Notes: generated by a model from the letters alone, not told the origin. A DNA stretch of 33,269 nt from Pseudobdellovibrionaceae bacterium (GCA_947370945.1 CANBND010000004.1:1-33269), one strand, 5' to 3'; positions 899 through 33,158 are shown, numbered from the stretch's first letter. A program made the numbers and translations.

Positions 899-1529
899 TT
901 TCTAAATTTTTTCGAAGTTCACTTTTGAAATCCGATGTAATTATTTTTGTATTCAATATTTTTTCTAAATTCGTCATTATTTCTGATTTGTAACCGCAGG
1001 GATTGATGCCAGCAAAGGCTGTGGGGTCGTCATTGATATTAATGGCTGCACCGTGAAACGTAATCCATTTTTTTACGGCAATGCCACAGCTGGCAATTTT
1101 TTTGTCGTCAACCCATACGCCAGTGTCTTCCAGGCCTGATTCAATTTTTTCTGAAGTTTTGCCATGCGCAGTCACCAAATAAGTTTTTAATGTTTGAACA
1201 ATTGAATTTTCAAGTGCGCGCAAAAATCCGCGAACTTCTTGCGGACCGCGATTTTTTCGGGGTTGTTTGATATTTATAATTGGATAGACAACAATTTGTG
1301 AAGGCCCATGATAAGTTGCGCGCCCTCCGCGAGAAACTTCAACGACGGGCCCGTACCAAGCAAATAAATCATGGGGTTCTGTTTGGCGGCCTATTGTGAC
1401 AACGGCAGGATGTGTACAAAAAATTAAAAAACCAGAATGATTTTCTGTTGAAGAAACAATTTCAACATATTCAAGTTGTTTTTGAAGGGCTGCTTCATAG
1501 TCGATCAAGCCCCAGTCTTCGAAAATCAT
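888..1529 (-). CDS. lipB: Octanoyltransferase (lipoyl(octanoyl) transferase)
   Basis: RGGRATYHGPSQIVVYP and GINPCGYK catalytic Cys motif; ORF-track start at 1559 is probably too long, MIFEDWGLIDYEAAL start at 1529 preferred. Confidence 0.92.
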   Translation of the reverse strand: MIFEDWGLIDYEAALQKQLEYVEIVSSTENHSGFLIFCTHPAVVTIGRQTEPHDLFAWYGPVVEVSRGGRATYHGPSQIVVYPIINIKQPRKNRGPQEVRGFLRALENSIVQTLKTYLVTAHGKTSEKIESGLEDTGVWVDDKKIASCGIAVKKWITFHGAAININDDPTAFAGINPCGYKSEIMTNLEKILNTKIITSDFKSELRKNLEINL

Positions 1530-1530
1530 T

Positions 1531-2979: not shown

Positions 2980-3005
2980 TATATATCTCCCATCATATCT
3001 GGCGG

Positions 3006-4640
3006 TTACGCCAGTCCCATCATAAGGACGCCAGGATTCTGAATTTTATTAAAAAATGATTTCAAGAAATTTGCAGCCACAGCGCCATCGATCAAACGAT
3101 GATCGCAAGTCACTGTGTAATTCATTGATTTAATAAAACCGATTGAACCATCTTTGTTTAAAATAGGTTTATCAGAAATTTTATACATTCCTAAAATAGC
3201 AACCTCTGGGTGATTGATGATTGGAGTCGCATAAGTACCACCGACAGAACCAATATTTGTAATTGTGATACAAGCACCTTTCATTTCGTTAGGCACTAAT
3301 TTTCCGTCGCGTGCGCGTTTTGATAAATCAATAATTTCTTTTGAAAGATCCAAGATTGATTTTTGATCTGCATTTTTAATCACAGGAACAACTAATCCAT
3401 TCGGAGTATCTGCAGCGAAACCAATGTTGAAATATTTTTTATAAACAATTTGCGAAGCCGCATCGTCGATCGATGCGCTGAACATTGGATATTCTTTGAT
3501 CGTTGCGATAAGGGCTTTGATTGCAAATGGTAAATACGTAATTTTTGTTCCATTTTTTTCTGCGAAATCTTTTAATGTTTCGCGTAAACCCACAAGCTGT
3601 GTCACATCGGCTTCATCCATCAATGTGAAATGTGGAATAATCGATTTCGACATTTGTAAATTCTGAGCGATTTTTTTTCTGATACCAATTAAATCAACAC
3701 GCTCTTCAAGATTTGAATTCGTAGAAGTGAACGCGGGTTTTGGAAAATTCATTGATGGAGTTCCCGCTGACGTAGCGCCAGTGCCGTTTGAAATAACCGC
3801 AGCTGATCCGCCTTTTGATGAAATCACATCTTCACGAGTGACTCGTCCAGCAAGTCCTGAGCCTGACATTCCGTTGATATCAACACCCATTTCTCGAGCT
3901 AATCTGCGTGTTGCAGGAGTTGCTAAAACTTTTGAATCAGCAACTGGAGGGTAAATTGTGTTGCTCATTGATGATGACATTGTCATTGCAGCCATAGGTG
4001 CAGACGTCACAGCTGGTTTATGATTTGTTGTCGCTTGCGGAGCAGCGGCAGCTTGAACAGTGCCACCAGATGCTCCAGATAAAACTAAAATTACATTTTC
4101 AACTTTGATGATTTCGCCTTTTTTAAATTTTAATTCTTTAACTATGCCTGCAACAGGTGACGGAACTTCAACAGTCGCTTTGTCAGTCATAATTTCTGCA
4201 ACTGTTTGATCGGCTTTTACTGTGTCGCCGATATTCACAGTCCATTTGACAAGTTCACCTTCGGTAACGCCTTCGCCTAATTCAGGAAGTTTTACGTTTA
4301 CAGTTGCTGAAGATGTTTGACCAACGGATACAGGGTTCGACGGAGTCGGAGCAGAAGCAACAGCAGCTTGCGGTTTTGGTGCCGCGGTAGCAGCAGTGCC
4401 TGCGCCATCAATTTTAATAATGACATTTTCTACTTTGATAATCTGACCAGGTTTAAATAAAAGCTCGGTCACAACACCTGCGTGAGGCGATGGAACTTCA
4501 ACAGTTGCTTTGTCAGTCATAATTTCTGCGACGGTTTGATCGGGCTTTACTGTGTCGCCGACTTTGACAGTCCATTTAACTAATTCGCCTTCGGTAACGC
4601 CTTCGCCTAATTCAGGAAGTTTGATGTCGATTGTTGCCAT
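3006..4640 (-). CDS. 2-oxoacid dehydrogenase E2 (dihydrolipoamide acyltransferase) with two lipoyl domains
   Basis: Two near-identical lipoyl domains (IKLPELGEGVTEGELVKWTV...MTDKATVEVPSP), peripheral-subunit-binding domain (ATPATRRLAREMGVDINGMSGSGLAGRVTREDV), catalytic TCDHRLIDGA. Start trimmed to MATIDIKLPELGEG. Confidence 0.95.
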   Translation of the reverse strand: MATIDIKLPELGEGVTEGELVKWTVKVGDTVKPDQTVAEIMTDKATVEVPSPHAGVVTELLFKPGQIIKVENVIIKIDGAGTAATAAPKPQAAVASAPTPSNPVSVGQTSSATVNVKLPELGEGVTEGELVKWTVNIGDTVKADQTVAEIMTDKATVEVPSPVAGIVKELKFKKGEIIKVENVILVLSGASGGTVQAAAAPQATTNHKPAVTSAPMAAMTMSSSMSNTIYPPVADSKVLATPATRRLAREMGVDINGMSGSGLAGRVTREDVISSKGGSAAVISNGTGATSAGTPSMNFPKPAFTSTNSNLEERVDLIGIRKKIAQNLQMSKSIIPHFTLMDEADVTQLVGLRETLKDFAEKNGTKITYLPFAIKALIATIKEYPMFSASIDDAASQIVYKKYFNIGFAADTPNGLVVPVIKNADQKSILDLSKEIIDLSKRARDGKLVPNEMKGACITITNIGSVGGTYATPIINHPEVAILGMYKISDKPILNKDGSIGFIKSMNYTVTCDHRLIDGAVAANFLKSFFNKIQNPGVLMMGLA

Positions 4641-4641
4641 A

Positions 4642-5610
4642 TTAAATTGTCTCCTCAGATTGAGTTGTGCTGTTTTGTAATTTTTTATTTTTTTCGATAA
4701 TTCCGTGCATAAAGAATTCTCCTGCACGATAGCTACTTCTGACAAGTGGGCCTGACGCTACATACAAAAATCCCATGCCTTCAGCGATTGTTTGCCATTC
4801 AGCGAATTTTTCAGGCGTCACATATTCAATAACTTTTAAATGCTTTTCTGTAGGCTGCAAATATTGACCAAACGTTACAACATCACAACCAACAGCACGC
4901 AAATCTTTCAGAGTTTGAATAACTTCAGAATCAGTTTCGCCAAGGCCTAACATAATTGAAGTTTTTGTATACATAGCTGGGTGAAATTCTTTAACAGCCT
5001 GAAGCAGTCGCATCGATTGTTTGTATTTTGCGCGCGGGTCGCGAACCGATGGCGTTAATCGTTCGACAGTTTCAATGTTGTGAGCAAAAACATCTGGTTT
5101 TGCATCAGCAAGGTGGCGAATTAAGTTTTCATCTCCGCGAAAATCAGGAGTTAAAATTTCAACGATTAAATTTGGATCTAATTTTTTCACAGTTTTGACA
5201 GTTCGAGCAAAATGGTCCGAGCCTTGGTCGGGCATATCATCGCGATCAACAGATGTAATAACGACATATTTTAATTTCATTTGCGAAATTGAATAAGCCA
5301 CTTTTTCAGGTTCAAGATCATCGACCGGAGGCAAGCCAATTTTAGCATTGCCAGTTTTAACGTTACAGAATTTGCATCCGCGTGTGCACACTTCGCCCAT
5401 CAACATAAACGTTGCGGTGCCGCCAGACCAACATTCGCCCATGTTCGGACAGCGTGCTTCTTGGCAGACGGTTGCTAATTTTAATTCGCCCAACATATTT
5501 TTAATGCGCGAATAATTTTCGCCCTGCGGAGCGCGAACTTTTAACCAATCAGGTTTTCGAAGCGGAGCTGGTTTTTGAACAGAAGCCTTATTTTGATCTG
5601 AATTTTCCAT
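4642..5610 (-). CDS. lipA: Lipoyl synthase (radical SAM)
   Basis: [13 protein letters not shown] and [13 protein letters not shown] cluster motifs characteristic of LipA. Confidence 0.96.
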
Positions 5611-5740: not shown

Positions 5741-5769
5741 AAAAAAGGCGATTATTGTGCGCCTTTTTT
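5741..5769 (-). terminator. Rho-independent terminator-like hairpin downstream of the PilZ gene
   Basis: Perfect 10-nt inverted repeat AAAAAAGGCG / CGCCTTTTTT with 9-nt loop; overlaps the PilZ stop codon, gives a U-tract on both strands. Confidence 0.75.
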
Positions 5770-6517
5770 ATGCAACATTTTTGAGGATATAGTTTTTAAG
5801 GTCATTTTTCAACCAGGACTGAAGCAGAACAACATTTTTTTCGCTCAGATCGACAAATTGAATATGTTTAGAGACTTTATCATTTTTTAAAATATGTGCT
5901 TTTAATTTAATATTAATTTTTTGGTCTGGAGAAGTGAGAAAGACTTCTAATTTTTTGTCATTCAAATGCTGAGGTAAATTTTCTTCGAGTAAAATTCCAC
6001 CTTCAGAAACATTTTTAGTAAAGGTTCGAAATGTTTTTTGTTCGAAAATAAAAGTGGCTTTAAGTCGGATATCAATACGGACGTATTTTCTTTTTTCTTC
6101 AGGTCTTAAATTTTTAGTTTCCTTTTGAACCTCTTGTTGAATCTCTTTGGCGACTTTATTTTTTTTAATATTTTGAAGGCTGACAACATTATCAGGTTCT
6201 GCGGCATTAACCTCAGTAGAAGGTTCTGGAGCAGAATGAGTTACAGTTACTTGTGATGCTTCATCACTGATTTCTGGAAAAGAAGGTAAATCACTTAAGT
6301 TTTGTGAATAGTTTTGTAAAAAGTCTGGAGCTTCTACAGCCAATTTCCAGGATTTCCATCCTCTTTGACAGACTTTAACTTCGGCAAGATTTAATTTTTG
6401 TTGACTAATATAGTTAATTGCACTCGTTGAATCAAAAGGACCCATCGGAGCTTTTAATTTGGTATCGAAAATAAACCAAACAGCTTCTGAGTTGTGAGTA
6501 TTGATTGAATCATTCAT
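5768..6517 (-). CDS. GYF_2-like N-terminal domain + PilZ (c-di-GMP binding) domain protein
   Basis: N-term VWFIFDTKLKAPMGPFDSTSAINYI...VCQRGWKSWKLA resembles GYF_2; PilZ motifs RKYVR (RxxxR) and NVSEGG ([D/N]xSxxG). Confidence 0.82.
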   Translation of the reverse strand: MNDSINTHNSEAVWFIFDTKLKAPMGPFDSTSAINYISQQKLNLAEVKVCQRGWKSWKLAVEAPDFLQNYSQNLSDLPSFPEISDEASQVTVTHSAPEPSTEVNAAEPDNVVSLQNIKKNKVAKEIQQEVQKETKNLRPEEKRKYVRIDIRLKATFIFEQKTFRTFTKNVSEGGILLEENLPQHLNDKKLEVFLTSPDQKINIKLKAHILKNDKVSKHIQFVDLSEKNVVLLQSWLKNDLKNYILKNVA

Positions 6518-6745
6518 AAAACTCCCCGATAATAATTATGATTTTATATCGACAAAATACGGGCTTTTCTAAAGTCGAGTTGAAACCTAAAATAAATTAA
6601 AATTGATATTGATCCTCATTTAAAAAATGTTTCACATTGAAACGCAAAAAAATAAAAAACAAATCGAACGGCATTTTGGTCGAGTTGAGGTCTAAAAAGT
6701 TTTGACGCTATTAAGAAGTTGGACAGATTAGCCGATATTTTATTT

Positions 6746-9700
6746 ATGAGAATGATCAATCTACTTTGCATTGCTTTTTTATTTTTTATTGTTGGTTGTG
6801 ATGAAAAGGTTATTGTTGCTCAATCTGCATCTTCGGTTTTAGAAGTTGTTACTTCTGAGTCCTCAAATCAAATTGTTTCACAAAGTAATAAAGTTTTTAG
6901 CTGGAGTTGTAATCGCACAAATTCGGAAAAACTTTGTAAGTACCGAAGTCATATCACATCGTCGGCAAGTTTTGATTTTACTTCTGAACCTTATGGTGAA
7001 TACGGTGCTGAAAAAAAGAAAGATCTAACTGGCGTCGTTGAAGGTGATTACTATTTATATGTTCAAGCCACTAATCAAGTCGGTTTAGAGAGTGAAGTCA
7101 AACAGATTCAGTTTCATTATTACCGCGTGCCTGTTATTAATTTAACAATCACAAGTTATACCTTTCAAAGGGATACATTAATTACGCCGATCAGTGTGAC
7201 CTCATCTGCAGGACTTGTGCAATCCTATAGTGTATCTCCGGCTTTACCAGCAGGTCTGACGCTGAATCCAACAACTGGAGTCATCAGCGGAACGCCGACG
7301 GCATTTAGTGCGGCCCAGACGTATCAGTTAACGGGAACTAACGTCAGCGGAAGTTCTAATGTTGCTTTTACGATCGCCGTGAATGATTTGCCGCCAACCG
7401 GTCTGACTTATTTAAATAATCCTGCAACTTATTTTAAAACGATCAGTTTATCAGTGCCGAACACTCCAAGTTTAAGTGGAGGTGGTGCTGTTACAGGTTA
7501 CAGTATCAGTCCGGTGCTTCCTGCGGGTCTTGTTTTTAATACAACCACGGGAATAATTTCTGGGACTCCGACAGTCATTCGTAGCACTTCGGATTATGTG
7601 GTCACTGCAACGAACAGTGGTGGTAGCGCAACAGCGACATTGACAATCACTGTGAATGATATAGGTCCTGCGGGTTTATCTTATTCAGCAAGCCCTGCGA
7701 TTTACACAAAAACAGTCCCGATCACAAATAATACTCCATCAACTGTTGTAGGAACGCCGACGAGTTATAGTATCTCGGCGCCGCTGCCTGCGGGACTTAG
7801 TTTTAATACAACCACGGGAATTATTTCTGGAACACCAACAGCTCTGTCGATTGCGACAGTTTATACAATCACTGCAGCAAATTCGGGTGGATCAACGACA
7901 ACAAGTTTATCGATCACTGTGAATGATGTCGCACCAAGTGGGTTAACTTATAGTACTAATTCGCCAGTTTACACGCGCGGTGTACTCGTCACTACAAACG
8001 TACCTATACAAACGGGTGGTGGTCCAATCACGGGCTACAGTATTAGTCCGGCTTTACCAGCAGGTCTTAATTTTAATACAGGAAATGGTCGAATCACTGG
8101 GACTCCGACAGGGTTGTCTGCAGCAGCCAATTATGTTGTGACGGGTACAAACACAGGTGGTTCTGTTCGAACGACTTTAAATATTACAGTGAATGATCAA
8201 GCGCCTGTGGGATTAAGTTATACAAATAATAATCCAGTGTATACGCGCATGAGTCAGATCACAACAAACTCACCGTCGTTCACAGGCGGGGGATCGCCGA
8301 CATCATTCAGTATTAGTCCTGCGTTACCGTTGGGTTTAGATTTTAATTTGTTGAACGGAGAAATCACAGGAACACCTCTTCTGATTCAAGATGCAAAAAC
8401 ATACACAGTGACAGCGACGAATAGTGGTGGCTCTGTATCTGTGAATTTAACAATTGCCGTGAATGATATTGCACCAAGTGGTTTGACGTATTCGAGTAAT
8501 CCTGCGGTGTATACGAAATCGTCTGCAATTACGGCGAATGTTCCGTCAACTAGTGGCGGATTTGTAATTAGTTATAGCGTGAGCCCTGCTTTACCAGCGG
8601 GACTCAGTTTAAATACAATCAACGGTCGAATTACGGGAACTCCAACAACAGTGCAACCTATTGCAAGTTACACAATAACTGCAACAAACACGGGTGGCAG
8701 TACAACAGCGACTTTACAAATCACAATCAGAGATATTGCACCGAGCAGTCTGACGTATTCAAGTAATCCAGCGGTCTACACAAAATCTTCAGCGATCACT
8801 CCAAACACACCATCAAGCAGTGGTGGTGCTATTGTCAGTTACAGTGTGAGTCCCGCATTACCTGCCGGATTAACTTTAAATACGACAACGGGAATTATTA
8901 CGGGAACTCCGACGGCTGCAGCTGCTCAAGCAAATTATACGATCACAGCGACGAATACGGGTGGCACTGCAACGGCATCTTTGAGCATAACTGTAAATGA
9001 TATTGCGCCAAGCAATCTAAGATACTCAAGTAATCCCGCTGTATATACAAGAACAGTTTTAATTACTGCGAATACACCAACAGTGGATGGTGGTGCAATT
9101 ACGAGTTACAGCGTTAGTCCTGCATTACCTGCTGGACTAAGTTTAAATACAACAACTGGCGTAATTACTGGGACGCCAACAAGTTTGCAAGGTCAGCTCA
9201 GTTATGTCGTCACTGCGACGAATGCTGGTGGAAGTACAACAGCCACTTTACAAATTACAGTCAATGATGTTCCTGCAAGTGGATTATATTATGCTGTCAA
9301 TCCTGCCAACTACACAATATCAACACCAATTGCAACGAACACTCCAACAGTGACTGGTATTGTAACAAGTTATTCGATATCTGCACCTTTACCTGCAGGC
9401 TTAAGTTTTAGCACAGTAACTGGTGAAATCACAGGAACACCAACTGTATTAAGTCCAGCAACAAATTATATTGTTACAGCAAATAATTCCGGTGGATCTG
9501 TGACAACGAATTTAACGTTGGCTGTGAATGACGTTGCGCCAAGTAGTTTAACATATTCAAGTAATCCTGCGGTCTATACAAGATCATCAGCGATTACTCC
9601 GAACACACCATCAAGCAGTGGTGGTGCAGTGATCAGTTACAGTGTCAGTCCCGCATTACCTGCAGGATTAAGTTTAAATACATCAACTGGAATTATTACG

Positions 9701-12700
9701 GGAACACCTACAAGTGTTCAGCCTATTGCGAGTTACACAATCACTGCCACGAATACAGGCGGAAGCACTACAGCCACATTACAAATAACAGTCAATGCTG
9801 TTGTACCAAGTAGTTTAACATATTCAAGTAATCCTGCGGTCTATACAAAATCTTCAGCTATTACACCGAATACGCCATCAAGCAGTGGTGGTGCAGTAAT
9901 TAGTTATGGAGTCAGTCCGGCATTACCTGCAGGATTAACTTTAAATACTTCTACTGGTGTTATCACAGGGACACCAACATCTGTTCAATCAATAACAAGT
10001 TACACAATCACAGCAACGAATACAGGTGGAAGTACAACAGCCACTTTACAAATTACAGTGAATGATGTTGCGCCTAGCAGTTTAACCTATTCAAGTAATC
10101 CTGCGGTCTATACAAAATCATCAGCAATTACACCGAACACGCCAAGTTATAGTGGTGGTACACCAACAAGTTTTAGTATTTTTCCGTCGTTATCAGCCGG
10201 ATTAAGTTTTGATAATACAACGGGTATTATTTCAGGAACGCCTACAGCAGTTGTGTCAATCACTTCATATCGTGTAACATTATTTAATTCAGGCGGATCG
10301 ACAGCTGTTGATATTTCAATAACAGTGAAAGACATTGCGCCGACGGGATTAACGTATTCTACGCATCCTGCGACGTATGAAAAATCTTCGGCAATTACGC
10401 CGAACACACCATCAAACACTGGTGGCGCAATTACAAGTTATTCTATTTCTACGCCGTTATCCGCAGGTTTAAGTTTTGATACGACAACGGGAATAATTTC
10501 AGGAACGCCAACAGCCATTTGCAGTGCAACTACGTACACTATCACTGGATCGAACTCTGGCGGAAGTGCAACTTTTGCATTATCTATCACAGTCAATGAT
10601 ATAGCGCCAAACACACTATCATATTCTGATATGACACCGATCTATACGAAATCAGTTTTGATTACACCGAATAATCCATCAAGTCTTGGCGGTGCACCAA
10701 CAAGTTATTCAGTGTTGCCACCGTTACCTGCGGGATTAAATTTAAATACAACAACGGGAATCATCACAGGAACGCCAACAATTTTAAAAACCACACCTTC
10801 AAGTTATGATATTACTGCTTACAATAGTGGTGGTAGTGCGACAGCCACGCTATCGATTCGAATCAATGATCGCGCGCCAACATCGTTAGTGTATGCCAAT
10901 AATCCAGTGACCTACATGCAAAATATTGCGATCACTCCGAACACAGCCACAGTTGGCGGTGGTGGGGCTCCGACGTTGTTTGCAGCGCCTTCGTTGCCTG
11001 CGGGATTAAGTATTAATTCAGCAACAGGTGAAATCACGGGGACTCCGACAACATTAACTGCAGCTGCAGATTACACAGTGACTGTCAGTAACAGTGGTGG
11101 AAGTATTTCGACATTATTAAATATCACAATCGATGAACCTGCACCAAGCGGATTAACATACAGTACACCAGCTGCAAAATACGAACAAAATGTCGCGATC
11201 ACTCCGAACACACCAACACTTGCGGTTGGAAATGCAGTTAGTTACGCGATCACGCCAACATTACCAACGGGATTAATTTTTAACACCACAACAGGTGTCA
11301 TCACAGGAACACCAACAGTTCGACAAAATGTGGCCAGCACCCACACCGTCACCGCCACAAACTCAAAAGGCCAGACAACCACAACGACAATTACTATTCG
11401 GGTGTTAGCGGCATTTATTATTACGGTGAAGACGGATGCGACGAATACAGCAGGTTCAATGGATTCAGATGGTTTTTCACGTAAGACTTATTGTTTAAAA
11501 CCAATAACTGATTATAATTTTAGTGTTGATTGGGGCGATTCAGTTATTGAAAACGTAACCTCATCGAATGGTAGTAGTACTGTTTGTCATACATATTCAT
11601 CGATTGGTACTTATTCTGTTAAATTATTAGGTGACTATGCATTTATTGAATTTGGAAAAATATTATCCGCTAACAGTAGTATCGATTCATTTAAGATTTT
11701 GTCTGTGGACCAGTGGGGTACTAATGTTTGGCAAAATATTAGATTTGGGCTTTGTGAAAACATGCATATAAATGCATTAGATACGCCTGATTTAAGTAGT
11801 GCTCAGTCAATTGATTTTGGAATTGCAAAATCTATGAATGAAAATATAAATAATTGGGACGTATCGCATGTGACAAATCTTAGTTATGCATTTTATCGTA
11901 CCAGCGCATTTAACCAACCCTTAGATAATTGGAATACATCGAATGTCACTGATATGAGTTACATGTTTGGCGATACTGCTTTATTTAATCAGCCACTGAA
12001 TAGCTGGGATACTTCAAAAGTAACAAATATGAGTTATATGTTTGTAAGTGCACGAGCATTTAATCAATCCTTAAACAACTGGGATACTTCAAACGTAACA
12101 AATATGTCTGGTATGTTTTATTATGCTACAGCATTTAATGGAACAATTGGAAGCTGGGATACTTCAAAAGTAACTTCAATGAATTCTATGTTTCTTTTAG
12201 CAGGAGTATTTGACATTGATATTTCTGGTTGGGTCACTTCGAATGTAACTGACATGTCGAAAATGTTTGTCTATGCAACAAAATTCAATCAGCCAATCGG
12301 CATTTGGAATACTTCAAAAGTAACAAATATGTCGAGTATGTTTTACGGCGCGACTTCTTTTAATCACCCCATTGATTATAACCCGTCAACTGGTGCATGG
12401 AATACTTCAAAAGTAACAAATATGTCGAGTATGTTTTACGGAGCGAGTTCATTTAATCAAAATTTAAATTTATGGGATGTGTCAGGTGTAACCGATATGA
12501 GTTACATGTTTTTTCAAGCAGTATCGTTTAATAGTAATATTAGCACCTGGAATACATCCAGTGTGACAAATATGATGCAAATGTTTGGTATGGCGTCAGT
12601 GTTCAATTCAGATATCTCTGCATGGGACACCTCAAGTGTTACAAATATGTCTGGTATGTTTAATGGCGCCGGTTCTTTTGATCAGCCGATTAATTATAAT

Positions 12701-13663
12701 TCATCAACAGGTGCTTGGAATACATCCAACGTAACAACAATGGCAGCAATGTTTCTTCATGCGTCAGTATTTAATCAAAATATTGGAGCTTGGGTTACAT
12801 CAAAAGTAACGGATATGCATGGAATGTTTTGGGATGCGACATTATTTAATCAGGATATTAGCGGCTGGAATACTTCTGCAGTAAAAAGCATGTCATATAT
12901 GTTTTCTCGGGCAGGAAGTTTTAATCAACCGCTCGATCAATGGAATGTATCGAACGTCATTGATATAGGGTGCATGTTCTGTGCAGCTACTTCGTTTAAT
13001 CAAAATATTAACACTTGGGATATATCAAAAGTAACAGAGATGAGAGGGGTGTTTATGGGTGCAACCTCATTTAATCAACCACTTAATAATTGGAATACTT
13101 CGAATATTACGAATATGGGTGGAATATTTAGAGGTGCAACTTCATTTAATCAACCCATTGGTAGTTGGAACACTTCTAAAGTTGAATATACAGCGGAGAT
13201 GTTTCGAGATGCGACATCATTTAATCAAGATTTAAATACATGGGATGTATCTAAATTAAGTATTACCGATTATATGTTTTATAATGCCACTGCATTTAAT
13301 AAACCTTTAGACCAATGGAATACATCTCATTTTAGTAGGTTGAATTATATGTTTTTAAATGCGACATCATTTAATGGAAACATTAGCACTTGGAATACTG
13401 CAAATGTCTCATCGATGGCAGGAATGTTTAGTCAAGCGACATCTTTTAACCAGCCGATTGGCAGTTGGAACACATCAAATGTTGGTGCGTTTTCAAATCA
13501 AGAATATCTAGGTATGTATGCAATGTTCTATGGTGCAACTTCATTTAACCAAGATCTGAGTGGATGGGATGTTAGTCATATGACAAGTTTCAATATCAGA
13601 CAAAATTTCGACACCGGCGCCACCGCCTGGGAAGCACCAAAAAAACCAAACTTCCCACCATAA
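6746..13663 (+). CDS. Giant predicted lipoprotein: He_PIG Ig-like repeats + PKD-like linker + BspA/DUF285 repeats
   Basis: Lipobox FFIVGC after [12 protein letters not shown]; 16 copies of ~89-aa PAGL.xNttTGxIxGTPT...[12 protein letters not shown] repeat; about 23 copies of 25-aa FNQPLxxWNTSxVTxMsxMFxgAts repeat. ORF-track start 6719; 6746 or 6752 gives a better signal peptide. Confidence 0.93.
7132..11406 (+). repeat. Tandem array of 16 He_PIG-type Ig repeats (~267 bp units)
   Basis: Counted from the translation by the recurring PALPAGL...GxITGTPT...ATNSGGS...ITVND pattern; units at about 9538 and 9805 are nearly identical at nucleotide level over most of their length. Confidence 0.9.
11840..13600 (+). 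repeat. Tandem array of ~23 BspA/DUF285-like 25-aa (75-bp) repeats
   Basis: Recurring FNQ(P/N/D)(L/I)xxW(N/D)TSxVTxMSxMFxxATS in the translation. Confidence 0.9.
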
Positions 13664-14625: not shown

Positions 14626-15420
14626 ATGAAAAGTGTTGGTGCTCGGATTATTAAGCTGTTTCAATTCCTTATCTTTTTGTTAACTCTGACCGTGGCTCAA
14701 CTTGCGCTTGCGCAAGTCCAACAGTCAACGCCCGCAAAAATCGATACCGCGACCCCCGCAAAAACCCCGACAGCAGCCGCACCCAAGGCCGACACTGAAT
14801 TTAAACTCGATAAAACGATTCTTGTCGATGAAGACAAAGAGCAAATTAATTCTTTATTCAAAGACATGATCGTCGTGCAACGCCGTGCGATCACGCGTGA
14901 AAATAAAATTTTGGCTGATACCAGTTTTAATTTCGATTATTCAGATTATCCCCGTACGATGTACGCCCTTGGGTTAGGTGCCGGGTATGCGCTGAGTGAA
15001 TCCATTGAAATTCACGGAGTACTTCATCCTGTGTATGTGTCGAATGAAAAACCGATCGCGCAATCCGTACGAAGTTTGCAGCTTTTAGATGAAACTCAAG
15101 CCGAACTCTTGGCGGCAAAACCTGTGCTTGGTTTTGAGAGCCACTTGATTTGGGTTTTAGCTTACGGAAAAGATGCGTGGGGTCCGTTTGATTTAGTTCG
15201 CAGTGATACATTTATGAAGTTTCTGCTGGGTGCAATTAAATATGATGGTGGAAAAACAGGACTTAAGTTCGGTGCCATGTTTGGTAAAACCTTATTTTTT
15301 AGCCGGCACTTTAATGTTCGCTTGTCCGTTGGACTCAGCTCTGTAGAACGATATATTAATGATCAAAAGCAAAGTTCAATCGTTGGAAATTTAGAACCCG
15401 CATTATTTTGGTATTTTTAA
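14626..15420 (+). CDS. Predicted outer-membrane beta-barrel-like protein at the head of a Glt/Agl-like cluster
   Basis: N-terminal signal peptide (LFQFLIFLLTLTVAQLALAQ); alternating amphipathic strands and terminal aromatic residue (EPALFWYF) typical of OM barrels. Confidence 0.6.
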   Translation: MKSVGARIIKLFQFLIFLLTLTVAQLALAQVQQSTPAKIDTATPAKTPTAAAPKADTEFKLDKTILVDEDKEQINSLFKDMIVVQRRAITRENKILADTSFNFDYSDYPRTMYALGLGAGYALSESIEIHGVLHPVYVSNEKPIAQSVRSLQLLDETQAELLAAKPVLGFESHLIWVLAYGKDAWGPFDLVRSDTFMKFLLGAIKYDGGKTGLKFGAMFGKTLFFSRHFNVRLSVGLSSVERYINDQKQSSIVGNLEPALFWYF

Positions 15421-15433
15421 AGGAGAATAGATT

Positions 15434-16069
15434 ATGTTTAAAGCGATAAAATTATTAATGTCACATGGAATGTCAGGATATCTTATTTTGATCGCCGCCG
15501 TATTTTGTATCGTCATCGCGATCGATCGATTGTATTATTTGTACGTTAAAATTTCTCTGGATGCGAAAGCCGCTTTGATTTTAGTGCAGAAAGAAATTCT
15601 TTCTCGAAATTACAACAACGCTTTACAAATTTGTAACAATCACAAACAAGTCCCTGAACTGACTGTCGTACGTGAAGGATTACTGGCTGTTGAAAACGGG
15701 CGGGAAGCAATGAATTCGGCGATTTCAGCAGCTGTTCTTGATGTGTCTCGTGGTTGCGAAACGCGATTATCATTTTTGTCATTGATTGCAAGTTCTGCGA
15801 CTTTACTGGGTTTGTTTGGAACGATTATGGGTCTAATTTCAACGTTTGAAGCCATCGCCAACGCGGATCCAGCAAGTAAAGGTCGCCTGTTGGGTAATGG
15901 TATTTCTGAAGCCATGTATTCAACAGCGGGCGGAGTTATCGTCGGTGTTGCGGCAATGATCGTTCACACAATTTGTGTTTCAAAATCAGATGTGATCGTT
16001 GGTAAAGCGCAAAATGCAGCATTAAGTATTGTAAAATGGATTGAGCAATCAGAAAGATCAAATGGCTGA
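15434..16069 (+). CDS. MotA/TolQ/ExbB proton channel family protein (AglR-like)
   Basis: Three TM segments; SSATLLGLFGTIMGLISTFEAIA...GISEAMYSTAGGVIVGVAAMI is the TolQ/ExbB core. Confidence 0.92.
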   Translation: MFKAIKLLMSHGMSGYLILIAAVFCIVIAIDRLYYLYVKISLDAKAALILVQKEILSRNYNNALQICNNHKQVPELTVVREGLLAVENGREAMNSAISAAVLDVSRGCETRLSFLSLIASSATLLGLFGTIMGLISTFEAIANADPASKGRLLGNGISEAMYSTAGGVIVGVAAMIVHTICVSKSDVIVGKAQNAALSIVKWIEQSERSNG

Positions 16070-16577
16070 TTTTTTAATCAAGCCCCCACGTCGTACAGTT
16101 AAAGAAATTCCACTGGCACCAATCCTGGATTTGCTGACAGTGGTTATATTCTTTTTAATTTTATCGACGTCCTTTGAGGAAGTCAGACAAAATACAATAC
16201 CTCAGTCGCAATTAATCAAACCCGATTCTGCGGACACTGCTAAACCTGAAATACCTCTGAATCCAAAAGTTCTTTTGGCTGAATCCCAAAACAGTTACAA
16301 AATTGTTGTGACTTGGACCGGAGATCACCCTGGCAGCCTTTCTAAAAATGTGGCGAAAGACAATCAAGATTATAATAAAAATTTGTACCAGATGACCCAA
16401 GAACTTTTAGATCAATATATTCAAAAATTTCCAAACGAAAAAACAATTCAAATCGGTTTTGAATCTAAAATTTCTTTTCAAAATGTGATCACAATCTATG
16501 ATGCCGTCTACTCAAAGTTGAAAGATATTGTTCTTCTTTCAAATGTTGATTCTGATGCCATTTTAAGTTCGAGGTAA
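16062..16577 (+). CDS. ExbD/TolR-like protein
   Basis: IPLAPILDLLTVVIFFLILSTSFEE: Asp-containing single TM of ExbD/TolR; start trimmed to MADFLIKPPRR, overlapping the TolQ-like stop by 8 nt. Confidence 0.85.
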   Translation: MADFLIKPPRRTVKEIPLAPILDLLTVVIFFLILSTSFEEVRQNTIPQSQLIKPDSADTAKPEIPLNPKVLLAESQNSYKIVVTWTGDHPGSLSKNVAKDNQDYNKNLYQMTQELLDQYIQKFPNEKTIQIGFESKISFQNVITIYDAVYSKLKDIVLLSNVDSDAILSSR

Positions 16578-16579
16578 AA

Positions 16580-17068
16580 GTGAAATTTGGTAAAACTCAT
16601 CGACATGAGCCCCATGAACCACAGCTTGCTACAATGATCGATGTATTTTCGATTTTAATCATTTTCTTGATCGCGGGAACTGCTATGGATTCATCGATTC
16701 TGCAAATTCCATCAGATATCAAATTACCGGCAACAATATCAGATGATACGATTATCAATGCTCCGCAAATCACAATACAAGGTGAAACGATCTGGTTTTC
16801 AGTCACGAAACAAAAATACCCATTGAACTTATTCTCTGAGGCCAATATGGGCACTCAAGAATTTTTAGATTTAAAAAATGTGTTAACTCAAGCTCTGGCT
16901 GAAAACAGCAAACAAAGTAATGCCATTATCAAAAATGAGAGCGCAGATTATTTGAATCTGGTCGCTGAAAAATCAACGCCGTATAAAGATATTTTTTTAG
17001 TCGTGAAAAACTTAAAAGATATTGGATTTAAAAATATTGTCTTTGTAGGAACAGTTCAAAAAAAATAA
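16580..17068 (+). CDS. ExbD/TolR-like protein (second copy)
   Basis: HEPQLATMIDVFSILIIFLIAGTAMD: MIDVF Asp TM motif of ExbD/TolR. Confidence 0.88.
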   Translation: MKFGKTHRHEPHEPQLATMIDVFSILIIFLIAGTAMDSSILQIPSDIKLPATISDDTIINAPQITIQGETIWFSVTKQKYPLNLFSEANMGTQEFLDLKNVLTQALAENSKQSNAIIKNESADYLNLVAEKSTPYKDIFLVVKNLKDIGFKNIVFVGTVQKK

Positions 17069-17069
17069 T

Positions 17070-18155
17070 ATGAATAGACTAACCACGCTGATTCTTTTAT
17101 TAGTTATTTTTAGCTCAAGTGTTGGTCGCGCGATCGATTTTTCAAGCTTAGAAAGCCACTTGAAAAATTTTGAACTGATGAGTGCCCGTGAAGAAATTAA
17201 AAAAATATCACAGGAAAAACTCAACATCAAAGATTGGCAACAGGTCCGTAGTTTACTGCATTCACATCCCAGTGTAGGTTGGGACATACTGCTTTTTTGG
17301 GATACAATGGCGCCGCTGAGCGAATCTAAAATTGATTCTTTGATTAAATCAGCGGATCAGCAATCTCTTGAAGGCCATTTTTTAGAGGCCGCCTTCAAAT
17401 ATCAAAGCGTGATTAAGAAAATTCAATCCAAAAAGAACTGGGTTCAGGGGCCTAATTACCAGCTTTATTTAACATTGATGCATTCTTTAGGGCGAGCATT
17501 ATATGGGGCTCGATTATTTAATGAAGCCTTTATGGTCTATCGAAAAATCCCTTCCAATTACATTTATTACAAGCAAGTTCAGTTTGAAATCATGTGGACA
17601 ACTTTTCGAAGCCAAAAATATGAATTAACTTTGGGGTCCTTAGCCACTCAGTCTTCAGGTTTCTTTTCTACATTTTTAGAACCTGAAGCTTACATTGTGC
17701 AATATTACGTCTATCGAAAAATATGTCGCCAGGACGAGAGCAATCTTATTGTTAAAAATATTAATGATTATTTTGATAAATTGAAAAAAAATGAAATTTC
17801 ATTGGATTTGTGGCTTAAAAAAGACGTCGAGACTTTATTATACAATCAGATTCTGAGCCTTGCTAAAAACAATCAACAAGAAAAAAATAACGAATATATC
17901 AGTTTACAAAATACAATGGAGCTTCGACGAAAAGCAGATCTAAAAAGACTGCTTGATCAAATGGAACTTGTCAGCGCCCATGTCAATCTGGTCCAAGTGA
18001 AAAAAACGAACGAACTCCGCAGTAATAAAAAGCTATTGATCGCTAATGAATATATCAAAAGAAAAGATCTTGAAACTTGGGATGTCGACGACAACGAAGT
18101 TTGGTCAGACGAATTGGGTCGCCATGTTTTCAAAGGTAAAAATTTATGTCGATAA
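17070..18155 (+). CDS. Predicted secreted helical/TPR-like protein (GltE-like position)
   Basis: Signal peptide MNRLTTLILLLVIFSSSVGRA; helical repeats (GHFLEAAFKYQSVIKK...GRALYGARLFNEAFMVYRKIP); operon position. Confidence 0.6.
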   Translation: MNRLTTLILLLVIFSSSVGRAIDFSSLESHLKNFELMSAREEIKKISQEKLNIKDWQQVRSLLHSHPSVGWDILLFWDTMAPLSESKIDSLIKSADQQSLEGHFLEAAFKYQSVIKKIQSKKNWVQGPNYQLYLTLMHSLGRALYGARLFNEAFMVYRKIPSNYIYYKQVQFEIMWTTFRSQKYELTLGSLATQSSGFFSTFLEPEAYIVQYYVYRKICRQDESNLIVKNINDYFDKLKKNEISLDLWLKKDVETLLYNQILSLAKNNQQEKNNEYISLQNTMELRRKADLKRLLDQMELVSAHVNLVQVKKTNELRSNKKLLIANEYIKRKDLETWDVDDNEVWSDELGRHVFKGKNLCR

Positions 18156-21100
18156 CACGTGGATTCAAAATGAAAAGTGTTTTCTTGGCCATCAGCCTGT
18201 TTCTATCAACAACAGTCTATTCTGCTGTTGAAAACTCATTCAAAGTCAGCACGCGACCTGAAGATGAACTGGCTCAGAAAAATAAGAAAAAAGATGAGAA
18301 AGTGGATCAGGTTTCAAAATACAAGCCCAAAGCAAAAAAAATTGAAATTGCAGTTGAACAAATCGAGACTCCTGAAGACCTAAAAAATAAACTTGATAAC
18401 TACTTGATCATTCTGAACAAAGAAAAAAAAGAAGACAAAAAAAGGATGATCAAGCTGAATAGCTTAGTCGTTCGTTTACAATTGGCCAGATCTTTACGTA
18501 TCAAATCAGGCGGAAAACAGTTATTAGTTGAAGAGAAAAAAATTCTTGAAGATTCAATTCAAGTTGCAGATGAGCTTTTAGCTGATACGTCTCTAGAGAC
18601 TCCTAAAAAAGCCTATGTCCTCTATTTAAAAGGTATGGCCTATCTGGATCTCAACGAAAAAGAAAAATCCAGATCCATGCTGTTGAAATCGATTGAACTT
18701 GATCCAAATTCTAAGTTTAGCATTGGAACAAGTATTTATTTAGCGGATGTTTTATTTGATGAGCAAAAATTAGAAAAATCCTTAAAAGAATTTAATCGAT
18801 TTTATTCAAAAATGAATGAAGCTGAAAAAGAACTCGTCGATTATAAAATAGCCTGGATTTATTTAAATCAATCCAAATTGGACCAGGCGCAAAGTATGTT
18901 CGAGAAAATTTATATACAAACAAAATCAGCCAATATGCTCAATGATGCTGTTCAGTCATTGGCCATTGTCGTCGGTGAAAATAAAGATCAAATGCGAGCT
19001 CTGAATTCACTTGAAAAAATATTTAGTCGAATTGATCCCAAGGATACAAGCGACAGAAAATTAAAATTGCTCTGGGCTGTATTTAACACTTTTCAAAGTA
19101 ATATCAATCGACAGCATGATAAAATCACTGAAAAATTGCTCGCAAGCATATTGAAAACAGAAGATAAAATTAAAATTTGGCTGGCTGAATTAAAGGATGC
19201 TCGTTACGTTGATAATCATAAAATGCAAATTTATTATTATAATGAAATCATAAAAAATATTGAAATTAAAGAGGGTCGATTTCCTGAAAACTTAGTGACT
19301 TATCAAGAAGAAGTTGAATATGAAAGTGAATTTATCATTTCCTATTATCTTCAATCCTATACTAAAAAAAGAACACCTGAAAGTCTCACTGTTTTAAAGC
19401 AAGCCTTGATGAATCACCTTCAGTTTAAAGACTCTAAAAAAATCAATGATGTTCAGCTCTTGTTACTCGATTTACTCAGCGAAGGCACTGACAAAAATGA
19501 ACTTTTAAGTTCCTGCGATGAAATGTTAAAATCCACTTTGGAGCCTCGTATTCAAGAAAAAGTGCTTTTGTATAAATTAGATGCTCTTGAATCGCTCTAT
19601 CGAACAGATCAGCAAAAATACTCTGATTTATATAAACAAACCTTTGAACAATTTCTTCCACAGACAAGTTTTCCGAACTGGGATACTGTGGCCAATAAAT
19701 ATGTCGGTTTTTTAGTAAATCTGAAAGATTTCGGCGCAGCTTTAGAAGTCTTAAAAACAATTTATGAAAAAAACAATTCAGAAGCCATTTTAGAAAAACT
19801 AGCAACAGTATTTTTTGAACTCGATCAGTGTTCAGAAATAATTGAATCTAAAAATTATCCATTTTCATCATCAAAAAGTACAAAAATCAGTGACTTCAAG
19901 CGCGAGTGTAATTTGAAAATGGCATCCAAAGCTAAAGAGTCGCCCGAGCAATTTGGAAATTACGAAAATCATATCAAAAGTTTTATTAAATCTTCGGACG
20001 GGGATAAAAAAATATCAGGAATGTTAGACTACCTTGCCACACTTGAAAAAAAAAATCAGCTTGAAAAAATTTATCAGTCATTAACGACGGATTTTAATGC
20101 AGATCGGTTTAATCCAAAAGTTGTTCCATTTACTTTTAAAATTTCGGTCCTGCTTGAAAATATTGCTCAATGGGACCGCGTCTTTAAATTAACTGATCAA
20201 TGTTTTGATCTTAAAACTTGTGCTGAATTAAACAGAGCCAAAGCTAACGCAGTCTTTGTACAAAGTGCAAAGTTTGATGCAAAAAAATTAAGTGATTTGG
20301 CTCCTGATCAATTGAAATATTATGAAGGATTTTTATCTGTTTTAGAGCCTTCTCAGTTTATTGAGTATAAATCAAAAACATCGAACATTTCAGCGCTCGA
20401 TAAAGGTCTGCTTGAATTGTCATTGAAATTAGATCAGAGGGATCTTAAAACGAAAGAAAATAAAGCGTTGTTGAAAAAGTTCGGTTTAACTGATGATAGT
20501 GTCTCGCTTTCCTTTACAGAAACAGACACTTATAAAATTTTAAAATCAATTAATTGGAATAAACCTGGTCGCAAATCAGAAGCTGACATTGCGAAAAGTG
20601 TAGAAAAAGTTCAGAAAACAAGAAAGACGTTTGCGAATGATCTTAAAAAATTAAAATACGATCAAATTGATTTGCTTTTAAATGAACTTATTATTGCCGA
20701 ACGAAATTGTTCACAGATGATTCTATCTTCTGATATTCCAGCAGGCCTGAATGAAGCTCAGAAAAATGAATATCTGAGCTCACTCAAGGGAATTGCAGCT
20801 GAATTCGACAAAAATGTGATTGATTATGAAAAAGCAAAAGTTTCGGTGAATGAAAAAATGAAAAGCTTGAAGAATCAAAATGAAGCTGCCAATTTTAAAA
20901 GGCCCAAAACAATTCAAGCTTGGTTTGGGCAAAAAGTAAAAGCAAAATATTTTTCACTCGTTGCCAATCAAGTGAGCTTAAAACAATATAAATCCGCAGT
21001 GCTGTTGGCAGATTTGTATAGGTCACAAAAACTGATCACAGATGCTGATTATTTTCTGATGCGATCAGGAGTCTTTTTAATTTCGAACAGTTCAAATGCA

Positions 21101-21175
21101 ATGCGTGATTTTGTCTATCAAGAACTCAAATCAGAAAAACAAGAAGGAGTCATTCAAGTATGGAAAAAGCTGTAA
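18146..21175 (+). CDS. Large TPR-repeat periplasmic protein (GltD-like position)
   Basis: TPR-like motifs (AYVLYLKGMAYLDLNEKEKSRSMLLKSIELDPNS...); signal peptide if started at MKSVFLAISLFLSTTVYSA (18170). Confidence 0.7.
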   Translation: MSITRGFKMKSVFLAISLFLSTTVYSAVENSFKVSTRPEDELAQKNKKKDEKVDQVSKYKPKAKKIEIAVEQIETPEDLKNKLDNYLIILNKEKKEDKKRMIKLNSLVVRLQLARSLRIKSGGKQLLVEEKKILEDSIQVADELLADTSLETPKKAYVLYLKGMAYLDLNEKEKSRSMLLKSIELDPNSKFSIGTSIYLADVLFDEQKLEKSLKEFNRFYSKMNEAEKELVDYKIAWIYLNQSKLDQAQSMFEKIYIQTKSANMLNDAVQSLAIVVGENKDQMRALNSLEKIFSRIDPKDTSDRKLKLLWAVFNTFQSNINRQHDKITEKLLASILKTEDKIKIWLAELKDARYVDNHKMQIYYYNEIIKNIEIKEGRFPENLVTYQEEVEYESEFIISYYLQSYTKKRTPESLTVLKQALMNHLQFKDSKKINDVQLLLLDLLSEGTDKNELLSSCDEMLKSTLEPRIQEKVLLYKLDALESLYRTDQQKYSDLYKQTFEQFLPQTSFPNWDTVANKYVGFLVNLKDFGAALEVLKTIYEKNNSEAILEKLATVFFELDQCSEIIESKNYPFSSSKSTKISDFKRECNLKMASKAKESPEQFGNYENHIKSFIKSSDGDKKISGMLDYLATLEKKNQLEKIYQSLTTDFNADRFNPKVVPFTFKISVLLENIAQWDRVFKLTDQCFDLKTCAELNRAKANAVFVQSAKFDAKKLSDLAPDQLKYYEGFLSVLEPSQFIEYKSKTSNISALDKGLLELSLKLDQRDLKTKENKALLKKFGLTDDSVSLSFTETDTYKILKSINWNKPGRKSEADIAKSVEKVQKTRKTFANDLKKLKYDQIDLLLNELIIAERNCSQMILSSDIPAGLNEAQKNEYLSSLKGIAAEFDKNVIDYEKAKVSVNEKMKSLKNQNEAANFKRPKTIQAWFGQKVKAKYFSLVANQVSLKQYKSAVLLADLYRSQKLITDADYFLMRSGVFLISNSSNAMRDFVYQELKSEKQEGVIQVWKKL

Positions 21176-21408
21176 TCCTTGGAATAGTTTCTCTATTTGT
21201 TTGTATTTCATCTTCGTATGCGCAAAAATCTAAGGGGAATGTATTAGATTTTAACGCGAGCGTTATTGAGGGTGAATTGAAAAGACCACAATTGTTTTTA
21301 GAACTTGGTACAGATATTAAAGATTATAGTTCAGTTTTACTTCAACGAGATGATTTTAACGACTTTCATGCGCTTGATATGAAACATAGACTTAAATTTA
21401 TCGAGTAA
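21160..21408 (+). CDS. Small secreted protein (CglF/GltF-like by size and position; tentative)
   Basis: Signal peptide MEKAVILGIVSLFVCISSSYAQ; VIEGELKRPQLFLELG core; overlaps the upstream stop by 16 nt. Confidence 0.55.
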   Translation: MEKAVILGIVSLFVCISSSYAQKSKGNVLDFNASVIEGELKRPQLFLELGTDIKDYSSVLLQRDDFNDFHALDMKHRLKFIE

Positions 21409-21414
21409 TTAGAT

Positions 21415-23151
21415 ATGTTAAAAAAATTAAGAATATCAAAATCAAAATTAGAAATTTTAAATATCTATCCCAATTCTCCATTGGTATTGATAGGTCGTTC
21501 GCCCTTATGTGATGAAATTTTACGAGCACCTGGCATACAGCCTGTCCATTTTCTGCTGGAATGGCTCGGAGAAGGAGAATTTAATCCTTCTTCAGGTGAA
21601 TGGACTATCTATGATGTTTCAAAGTTGAATCATCATACTGAAAATCAGTCTTCATCATCAGCTCTGTCAGATGGAATTTTATTAACTGAACAGTCACAGA
21701 CGATTGGTGACTTTCAGTTTTCCTGGTATGAAGATCGTATTGCCGAAGTTCAATTGGATAAAGGGTTACTGTCAGAGAACCTTATGAGATCATCGTACTC
21801 GGATGAACCTGCCATTAAAAATAACCCAAAATTAGCTTTAGAAATTGTAAAAGTGAATAGAAATGATAATTTTGTTACAGATATTGATCATGTCTTTTTA
21901 GGCGATTCCTGTTTGATTCGAACTGCAATTTCGCCTGAAATTAGAATTCATTGGAAACTTCAAAGTCAAAATGTGAATTTATCCTTTTTGAAAGAACCTG
22001 AATCAAGTTATACCATTAAAGGCGAGCAGATCGATCTTAAAAATTCACCTGTTGAAATGAATAATGTTTACAGGATCTTTTTTCAAGAATCTGAATATTA
22101 TTTCAGGCTCGTTCACCGTATTCAAATCCCTGCAGTTCCTTTGGAAATTTTTAAAGATCATTTTTTTAAATTACTCGCTTCAATTTTTGTCATTTCGATT
22201 CTGCTATTTTGGGTGATTTATAGTTTTGTTTCGCTCCAAGTGATCGACAACAAATCTGAAGAGCCACGAATTGTTAAATTAAAAACTATCGATTTAAAAC
22301 CAGCACCTCCGCCGGCACCTCCAGCTGCGATTGAAAAACCCCAAGAGGTTACCTCTGAAGTTCAGGTTCCGCAAAACACGAATAAGGTCGAAGAAAAACA
22401 GCAACCTCAACCAGAAAATAAACCAGTTCCTAAAACTGTTAAAAATATCCATGCTCCTAAAGCACCTGCCAAGGAAAAGAATGTCGGTAGTTTGGGTCTA
22501 TTGGCAAAGTTAAAAAAATCGCAAACGAATGACAATAGCAACTCTCAAGCTCTGGCGAAAACTTTGAATGATAACGTTGCCGCCTCACAAAATACAGGTG
22601 GCGTTTTATTAAAAACGTCTAAAGAAGCTTCGCTTGATGCGAACTCATTAAAAAGTAAAACGAATAATTCAAATGACCTTGAATCAGCTTCAACGAATCT
22701 CAATGGCTCAAAAGAATTAACTGATGGAAATAACAAAGCCTTAGTTTCTGATAAGGGTGTCGATTCAAGCCAGTTTAGTGCTTCTCAGGGGCAACAAAAT
22801 GGAAAAAGAGATTTTTCAGAGGGAAATAAACTAGGTCAAGATGGAGAAAGCGTTTCAGGTGGTCTGACAAAACAGCAAGTCAGTGACAGTATTGCTGAAC
22901 ACCGTCGCGAAATAAGAACGTGTTTTGAGTCAGCGCTTTCTGTCAGAAATAATTTAAATGGAGTTGTTTCTTATCAATGGAGTATTTCGGCGGATGGAAG
23001 TGTAACTTCAATTAAAATTAAATCGTCAGAAACAGGCAGTAATTTGTTAGAAAGTTGCGTTATGCAAGTGATCCGAGAAATTAAATTTCCAAAAGCTGCG
23101 AATGGGCAAAGTACAGTTGTTATTTATCCGTTTGTATTCAAGAAAACTTAG
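21415..23151 (+). CDS. FHA-like domain + TM + Pro-rich + AgmX/PglI-TonB-like C-terminal domain protein (GltG/GltJ-like)
   Basis: FHA-like VLIGRSPLCDEILRAPGIQPVHFLLEW...WTIYDVSKLN; TM FFKLLASIFVISILLFWVIYSFV; PAPPPAPPAA; C-term SDSIAEHRREIRTCFESAL...GVVSYQWSISADGSVTSIKIKSSE...SCVMQVIREIKFPKA. Confidence 0.8.
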   Translation: MLKKLRISKSKLEILNIYPNSPLVLIGRSPLCDEILRAPGIQPVHFLLEWLGEGEFNPSSGEWTIYDVSKLNHHTENQSSSSALSDGILLTEQSQTIGDFQFSWYEDRIAEVQLDKGLLSENLMRSSYSDEPAIKNNPKLALEIVKVNRNDNFVTDIDHVFLGDSCLIRTAISPEIRIHWKLQSQNVNLSFLKEPESSYTIKGEQIDLKNSPVEMNNVYRIFFQESEYYFRLVHRIQIPAVPLEIFKDHFFKLLASIFVISILLFWVIYSFVSLQVIDNKSEEPRIVKLKTIDLKPAPPPAPPAAIEKPQEVTSEVQVPQNTNKVEEKQQPQPENKPVPKTVKNIHAPKAPAKEKNVGSLGLLAKLKKSQTNDNSNSQALAKTLNDNVAASQNTGGVLLKTSKEASLDANSLKSKTNNSNDLESASTNLNGSKELTDGNNKALVSDKGVDSSQFSASQGQQNGKRDFSEGNKLGQDGESVSGGLTKQQVSDSIAEHRREIRTCFESALSVRNNLNGVVSYQWSISADGSVTSIKIKSSETGSNLLESCVMQVIREIKFPKAANGQSTVVIYPFVFKKT

Positions 23152-31928: not shown

Positions 31929-33158
31929 TTATAACCCCTCCCAATGACTAAATGCCCCCGCTAAATAATCCAAATCATTTTTCGAAAGCCCTTCGCTTAA
32001 ATAAAAAGAATGCCATTTTGAAATGACAGTTTTCATTTTATTAAAAATATTTTTTGCTTCATCAGTTGTTAAATCAAAAGCATCAGATTGTGATAATAAA
32101 TTTTCTAAATTAAATACGCGCCCCTGTGATCCAAATTTCATAGCTAGATAACGTGTTGTGCCGGTTTCAGGTTTTGGAACTAAATCATAAACGGGTGACA
32201 AATGATAATCGTTAGTGCCGTATAAAAATCCGTGGTTTCTGGGATGATCGTCCGTATTTGAAACCAAGCCGTTAAACACGATTCGTTTAAACATTTCGTG
32301 CAGATCGTTTTTTGGTTTTTTGATCCAGCGGCGCATTTGATCTGCCAAATCAATATAGGACCAATTCGAATAATCTTTTTCGTCCAAATTCATTAACGTC
32401 AGGCCACTGATAAAATGCGTGCGATAAAAGTCATTTTGTTTTTTTTCAAAACGCCTATCAAAGCGCTGAATTAAAAATACGTCTTGGTTTTTAATTTTGA
32501 TCAATTCAATATTTGGAACATTCAATCCGCATTTTTTTGCAAGTTTCATCGTCGCATATTCAATGCTTGAAATATTGTATTTGTCATAAGCCGACGGAAA
32601 TTTTACCAGCCATAATTGATTGTTATGTTCGACTGTGGTTTTTGGTCGAGCTCCGCCGGCAGATGGGCCTGCCATTAGAATTGATTTTTCAGCTTCATCC
32701 AGTGGTAAATCTTGTTCAAGCTTGTGTGCCGCTGCAATTAATTTTTCAAGTTGAATCGTTTGATTAAATTTTCTTACGGGCGCTGGCGGAACTTTTCCAT
32801 GACCAAATGACAGCGCGCCGATGCGATCATCGGCAGAATTTAATAAATAACCAATCGTATCGTGTTCCGAGGGCGGAGTATTTTTTTGAATGACATATCG
32901 GCCCCAGCCGTCAGGGCTTGAATCGCGAAGTGGACCATGAGTGCCTTCGTTTTTTGTTTCAGAAAACTGGCGTTCTTCAAGCGGTAAGTTATAGGGATCA
33001 ATTGAAATTGCTGATTTGTTTTTTAAATAACTTTGAGCATAAACGAAAGTTCCAACATCTGTATTGGCTCCGCTGTTTGTCCAGTTGAATCGTCCAACGG
33101 TAACGGTTTCAAATGTATCTGGTAATTGGATGTAGACGTAACATTCTTTAGAAATCAT
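31929..33158 (-). CDS. hipA: HipA-type toxin kinase
   Basis: GPSAGGARPKT, LWLVKFPS, VFLIQRFDR, FNGLVSNTDDHPRNHGFLY, LSPVYDLVP: HipA kinase signature. Confidence 0.92.
   Translation of the reverse strand: MISKECYVYIQLPDTFETVTVGRFNWTNSGANTDVGTFVYAQSYLKNKSAISIDPYNLPLEERQFSETKNEGTHGPLRDSSPDGWGRYVIQKNTPPSEHDTIGYLLNSADDRIGALSFGHGKVPPAPVRKFNQTIQLEKLIAAAHKLEQDLPLDEAEKSILMAGPSAGGARPKTTVEHNNQLWLVKFPSAYDKYNISSIEYATMKLAKKCGLNVPNIELIKIKNQDVFLIQRFDRRFEKKQNDFYRTHFISGLTLMNLDEKDYSNWSYIDLADQMRRWIKKPKNDLHEMFKRIVFNGLVSNTDDHPRNHGFLYGTNDYHLSPVYDLVPKPETGTTRYLAMKFGSQGRVFNLENLLSQSDAFDLTTDEAKNIFNKMKTVISKWHSFYLSEGLSKNDLDYLAGAFSHWEGL

Follow-up and report, generated by a model that had tools for sequence, protein, structure and literature searches.

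Four Agl/Glt-like gene clusters have been described in Bdellovibrio bacteriovorus HD100 (PMC2797640; PMC12546842), and a 2026 review lists the gliding machinery of Bdellovibrio as unidentified and as a major open challenge (PMC13104615). In the corresponding Myxococcus xanthus system a contact between AglR and GltG has been observed, and a D28N mutant of AglQ has been studied (PMC3858216). Here we analyze a 33,269-nucleotide stretch of DNA (hereafter the window) from a Pseudobdellovibrionaceae bacterium (GCA_947370945.1, contig CANBND010000004.1), whose genome assembly comprises 2.59 Mb in 247 contigs. By sequence comparison, a cassette of eight genes at positions 14626-23151 constitutes a fifth type of Agl/Glt cluster that is separate from the four known in HD100. 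This conserved type is new relative to those published clusters, and we found no description of it in the open literature searched, subscription literature lying outside the scope of that search.

The eight open reading frames all lie on the plus strand, with spacing between neighbors of -29 to +13 bp, and each sits where a sequence-only reading of the window had placed a run of tightly packed genes. Chance can be excluded as the source of this arrangement, since the identical eight-gene order recurs in diverged species whose fifth proteins share 27-33% identity. Profile comparison with hhalign, the check that the sequence-only reading had proposed, paired all eight products (P1 to P8, in gene order) one-to-one with GltB, AglR, AglQ, AglS, GltC, GltD, CglF and GltG at probabilities of 96-99.9%. 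The reference profiles were those of the canonical Bdellovibrio Glt/Agl proteins, and the M. xanthus proteins were compared through NCBIfam models only.

P1 (14626-15420) is a GltB-like protein (hhalign 98.9%) predicted to form an outer-membrane barrel. By itself it matched the OMP_myx_plus model (TIGR04565) weakly (expectation value, E, 0.0023), whereas all 21 of its 21 orthologues matched (best 7e-17), and its AlphaFold (AF2) model is an eight-stranded barrel with per-residue confidence (pLDDT) mostly 90-98 from residue 91 onward, resembling OmpA/OmpW-type barrels in structure comparison. The next three genes encode the putative motor. P2 (15434-16069) is an AglR-like Q-type channel of the MotA/TolQ/ExbB family (PF01618, E 2e-22; hhalign AglR 99.7%) in which Thr130 and Thr164 are conserved, and P3 and P4 are two R-type subunits of the ExbD/TolR family (PF02472), each with a transmembrane aspartate, Asp30 and Asp21 respectively, that was invariant in 18 sequences. 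The likely start codon of P3 (16041-16577; hhalign AglQ 97.6%) is the ATG at 16062 rather than the TTG at 16041. P4 (16580-17068; PF02472 E 4e-11) is AglS-like, although it paired nearly equally with AglS (95.9%) and AglQ (95.7%).

The remaining four genes encode predicted periplasmic and transducer components. P5 (17070-18155) is a short GltC-like exported protein (NF033756, E 1e-14; hhalign GltC 98.6%) that serves as the marker of the type. P6 (18146-21175) is a GltD-like exported protein with TPR matches that aligned to GltD over nearly its full length (99.6%). The small exported P7 (21160-21408) is CglF-like (97.6%), and 18 of 18 orthologues matched NF033764 (best 3e-8). P8 (21415-23151) is a GltG-like transducer that combines an FHA domain, a transmembrane segment (256-274), a proline-rich stretch and an AgmX/TonB-type C-terminus; it aligned full-length to GltG (99.9%), matched NF033768 (E 9e-24) and NF033760 (E 6e-22), and the FHA domain was present in 18 of its 20 orthologues. 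The profile and fold evidence agrees with the assignments of barrel, channel, two R subunits and FHA-TonB-like protein made from the sequence at the outset.

We then asked to which class of energized envelope machine the cassette belongs. Among the 64 Q proteins placed in a tree (31 of them window-type), the Agl-type proteins split from TolQ/ExbB at 100/100 support, and the window-type proteins formed a single clade (95/99) apart from the Q proteins of all four HD100 clusters. The sister relation of this clade to that of Bd1473 is not relied on, because the tree program flags long branches there. Among the annotated window genes we found no domain of TolB, Pal or a TonB-dependent receptor, and the genome encodes separate Q/R pairs elsewhere, on contigs C17 and C19; behind the C19 pair lie two genes that resemble a TonB protein and a receptor in size, position and N-terminus. 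Membership in a Tol-Pal or TonB-ExbBD uptake system is rejected on the basis of the tree together with the neighborhood, as the sequence-only reading had expected in setting the locus apart from a plain Tol-Pal or TonB system. The two outcomes that it had named as contradicting an Agl/Glt assignment, namely Q and R proteins grouping with Tol-Pal or ExbBD and TPR and FHA proteins unlike Glt components, were looked for and neither was found. Its view that one Q with two R subunits is diagnostic was too strong; ExbB-ExbD-ExbD sets occur in other systems, so the arrangement is only supportive.

Components of the core complex defined by Luciano 2011 are present in the form of an AglR-type channel, two R subunits with a transmembrane aspartate, and homologues of GltC, GltD and GltG. 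The TPR lipoprotein GltE is not in the cassette (one copy lies in the canonical cluster on contig C48), and we therefore file the cassette as a variant of the Agl/Glt class and not as a full core complex. No separate gene in the cassette matched GltA, GltF, GltH-K or CglB, of which only GltA was sought elsewhere in the genome, where it lies on C48. Likewise, matches to the NCBIfam models for GltC, GltG, GltJ and CglF scored 54, 78, 58 and 17 bits, below the equivalog cut-offs of 450, 650, 450 and 90. Taken together, these comparisons make it highly probable that the cassette encodes an Agl/Glt-class envelope machine.

Each of the described clusters resembles the cassette in part. The canonical cluster, Bd0828-0838, has a counterpart for every cassette protein, but its order is GltA-B-C-D-E-CglF-G-AglR-Q-S, compared to GltB-AglR-Q-S-GltC-D-CglF-G in the cassette, which is without GltA and GltE and has a short GltC, a single barrel and a dedicated GYF-PilZ protein, described below. 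The same genome carries the canonical GltA-B-C-D-E-CglF-G set on C48 and its motor on C13. Orthology of the cassette to the canonical gliding cluster is ruled out, as GltA-G and AglRQS sit on these other contigs. Contig C48 also carries a gene for an FHA-sigma54-activator protein (15621-16534 of locus L018).

The Bd1473-1483 cluster shares a set of AglR-Q-S, GltD, GltG, GltB and GltC with the cassette, but it has a separate Q clade, a long GltC (~700 amino acids) and another gene order. Its counterpart in this genome is on C45, and further partial sets reach contig edges on C49, C145 and C158. The Bd0412-0420 and Bd2368-2377 clusters resemble the cassette in their AglR-Q-S, GltD, CglF-sized, GltG, GltB and GltC content, and the Bd0412 type shares a short GltC (358 amino acids), whereas their Q proteins fall outside the window clade, their order is permuted and an extra gene of ~360-390 amino acids separates GltG from the barrel. 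In comparison with the M. xanthus AglRQS-GltA-K and Nfs machines, the GltC, GltG, GltJ and CglF models match cassette proteins, but below the cut-offs given above and without GltF/H/I/K, a separate GltJ or CglB; motor and transducer share one cassette here, whereas they occupy separate loci in M. xanthus. Thus, the proposed match to the M. xanthus and Bdellovibrio machinery holds for the class, while the cassette holds only some of the M. xanthus components and is an additional type with respect to the canonical Bdellovibrio cluster.

The distribution of P5 also sets the type apart. A search of 372 genomes of the phylum with a model of the short GltC gave 36 copies, which fall in 34 of the genomes (about a tenth), with a gap in scores from E 1e-77 to 7e-20. 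HD100 and P. exovorus gave no window-type GltC; of 79 relatives, 77 carry a GltC of one type or another. This gap and the Q tree together rule out that the cassette is an orthologue of one of the HD100 clusters. One scan of genomes from 85,462 species returned 28 loci, and those with a named group all belong to the Bdellovibrionota (formerly Oligoflexia); one further locus is listed just as 'bacterium'. Gene order was identical in every complete cassette among these loci, which span several Bdellovibrionota families. The sole named carrier not known from a metagenome-assembled genome is Ca. Bdellovibrio qaytius, an epibiotic predator (PMC11656739). Locus L073 (G042, contig C24) is a second, rearranged window-type copy in which the GltC gene is inverted and P8 precedes P6.

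A ninth gene, overlooked by the sequence-only reading, whose list of eight members otherwise stands, probably extends the cassette unit beyond its 14626-23151 limits. This gene (5768-6517, minus strand) encodes a 249-residue protein, with no signal peptide or transmembrane segment seen, that carries a PilZ domain at residues 141-236 (E 4e-11) and is a predicted receptor for cyclic di-GMP (c-di-GMP). Among 21 loci with a complete cassette and both flanks, 19 have a GYF-PilZ gene within 1.3 kb of it. Eight sampled genomes carry 12-18 PilZ genes each, and a simple estimate puts the chance of adjacency at ~2% per locus, a figure that is a guide and not a p-value because the loci are related. In the window the gene lies 8.1 kb upstream of the cassette, with a gene for a 2314-residue lipoprotein and two small open reading frames between, and its divergent orientation is as in Ca. 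B. qaytius and loci L114 and L127. By sequence, it is the orthologue of the cassette-flanking protein, scoring 113 bits over its full length against a model built without it, whereas the next-best PilZ protein in this genome reaches 34 bits.

The features of a c-di-GMP receptor, RxxxR, [D/N]xSxxG and the PilZ fold, are all present in the sequence and the model. Residues R143 and R147 of RxxxR, and S171 and G174 of NxSxxG, were invariant in 19 orthologues, and the AF2 model shows a PilZ fold. Its N-terminal domain gave a weak GYF match (E 0.08), the window protein had no GYF match in Pfam, and 3 of 19 orthologues matched GYF_2, so that the GYF assignment is probable but not certain. For the Bd1473-1483 operon, Hobley 2012 had already pointed to Bd1482, a PilZ protein encoded at the 5' end (PMC3271064). 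Its counterpart on C45 is also a GYF-PilZ protein (PF14237 and PF07238), accompanied at the 5' end by a MIDAS-adhesin-like lipoprotein, indicating that pairing of GYF-PilZ with Agl/Glt genes recurs in two types, although the Bd1473-type protein differs from the window type, scoring 12 rather than 113 bits against the window-type model. On C45 (7262-8938 of locus L015), genes for GYF-PilZ and the CglD/MIDAS-adhesin-like lipoprotein lie upstream of the Bd1473-type motor genes.

Based on these findings, we consider it reasonably probable that the cassette encodes an accessory, minimal and self-contained surface-transport machine of the Agl/Glt class that is driven by protons and gated by c-di-GMP. 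The AglR-Q-S-like subunits would form an inner-membrane motor in which the intramembrane aspartates of both R subunits and the conserved threonines of the Q subunit carry the protons. The GltG-like P8 would couple this motor, through its transmembrane segment and TonB-like tail, to the periplasmic GltC, GltD and CglF homologues and the GltB-like barrel, and movement of a surface component along the outer membrane would result. Use of the proton gradient by a Q-R-R motor and relay of movement by P8 are drawn by analogy with M. xanthus, and the conservation of Asp30, Asp21, Thr130 and Thr164 fits this view. The cytoplasmic GYF-PilZ protein may let c-di-GMP engage or disengage the machine, a gating step that its linkage and motifs make moderately probable and that brings with it a specific candidate switch. 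The output would likely be surface translocation or positioning on a substrate or prey; whether it is of the gliding type we regard as evenly balanced. As motor and transducer are contained in eight genes without accessory parts, the cassette offers a simple set for testing what the core does.

Several points weigh against this proposal. Counterparts of GltE, GltA, GltH-K and CglB are missing from the cassette, and paralogous clusters of M. xanthus were reported to have no effect on gliding (Luciano 2011, PMC3169522). The evidence for PilZ action on the machine consists of gene linkage and sequence.

PilZ control frequently accompanies polysaccharide systems, and this would suit an Nfs-like machine in which the same drive moves or wraps a surface polymer (coat, capsule or slime) and not the cell. 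AglRQS of M. xanthus drives both Glt and Nfs, and Nfs distributes spore-coat polymer without GltI/J/K (PMC3858216; PMC3169522), which the cassette likewise lacks. However, the annotated window genes include none for polysaccharide export or a glycosyltransferase, a search that did not extend systematically to the flanks of relatives, and we view such a machine as fairly unlikely. A device for prey contact or invasion that is separate from locomotion, of the kind proposed for Bd0412-0420, would be in keeping with the peak of Bd0411-0421 proteins after prey entry and of Bd2368-2377 at exit (PMC12546842), and with the presence of the cassette in the epibiotic Ca. B. qaytius. In contrast, the intraperiplasmic HD100 and the epibiotic P. 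exovorus are both without it and its carriers are mostly metagenome-assembled genomes, leaving this reading distinctly unlikely. Finally, although Tol and Ton systems share the families of the Q and R subunits and of the TonB-like tail with the cassette, a role in Tol-Pal-like constriction of the outer membrane or in TonB-like energized transport is largely refuted by the Q tree, the separate Q/R pairs, the gene content of the window and the GltC, GltD, CglF and GltB homologues, and is very improbable.

The gene between GYF-PilZ and the cassette (6719-13663, plus strand) encodes the 2314-residue repeat protein, a predicted lipoprotein and putative surface adhesin with 16 Ig-like He_PIG stretches and six BspA-like DUF285 matches. 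Its N-terminal hydrophobic stretch ends in IVGC, a probable lipoprotein signal, and a 267-bp tandem repeat array spans 8462-10144. Its membership in the cassette unit is uncertain, and no homologue was found in the flanks of related cassettes. A bolder form of the proposed machine would have the cassette and GYF-PilZ act as a complete minimal motor with a built-in c-di-GMP clutch that moves this lipoprotein as an adhesin, which we judge unlikely. Such a clutch would resemble MotI and YcgR, PilZ proteins that act on flagellar stators and are among the structural neighbors of the window PilZ domain.

In several genomes the cassette lies directly downstream of the canonical GltG-AglRQS cluster, past lptC/A, lptB and rpoN. 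These genes follow the canonical AglRQS motor in loci L065 (where Pfam identifies them), L019, L152 and L154, and similar-sized genes follow it on C13 of the source genome, in HD100 and in P. exovorus. Together with this location of the cassette, an MglA-like GTPase encoded in the source genome speaks for the proposed machine. Promoter-like sites in the window numbered 47, compared to 35.1 (standard deviation 6.2) in shuffled sequence, and terminator-like sites 8, compared to 6.9 (2.2), so neither count is informative. Elsewhere in the window, 888-5610 holds packed lipoate/2-oxoacid dehydrogenase genes (LplA/LipB-type ligase, lpd, E2 and lipoyl synthase) with overlapping open reading frame calls, and a gene for a HipA-like kinase (31932-33158; HipA_C, E 1e-51) lies at the window end.

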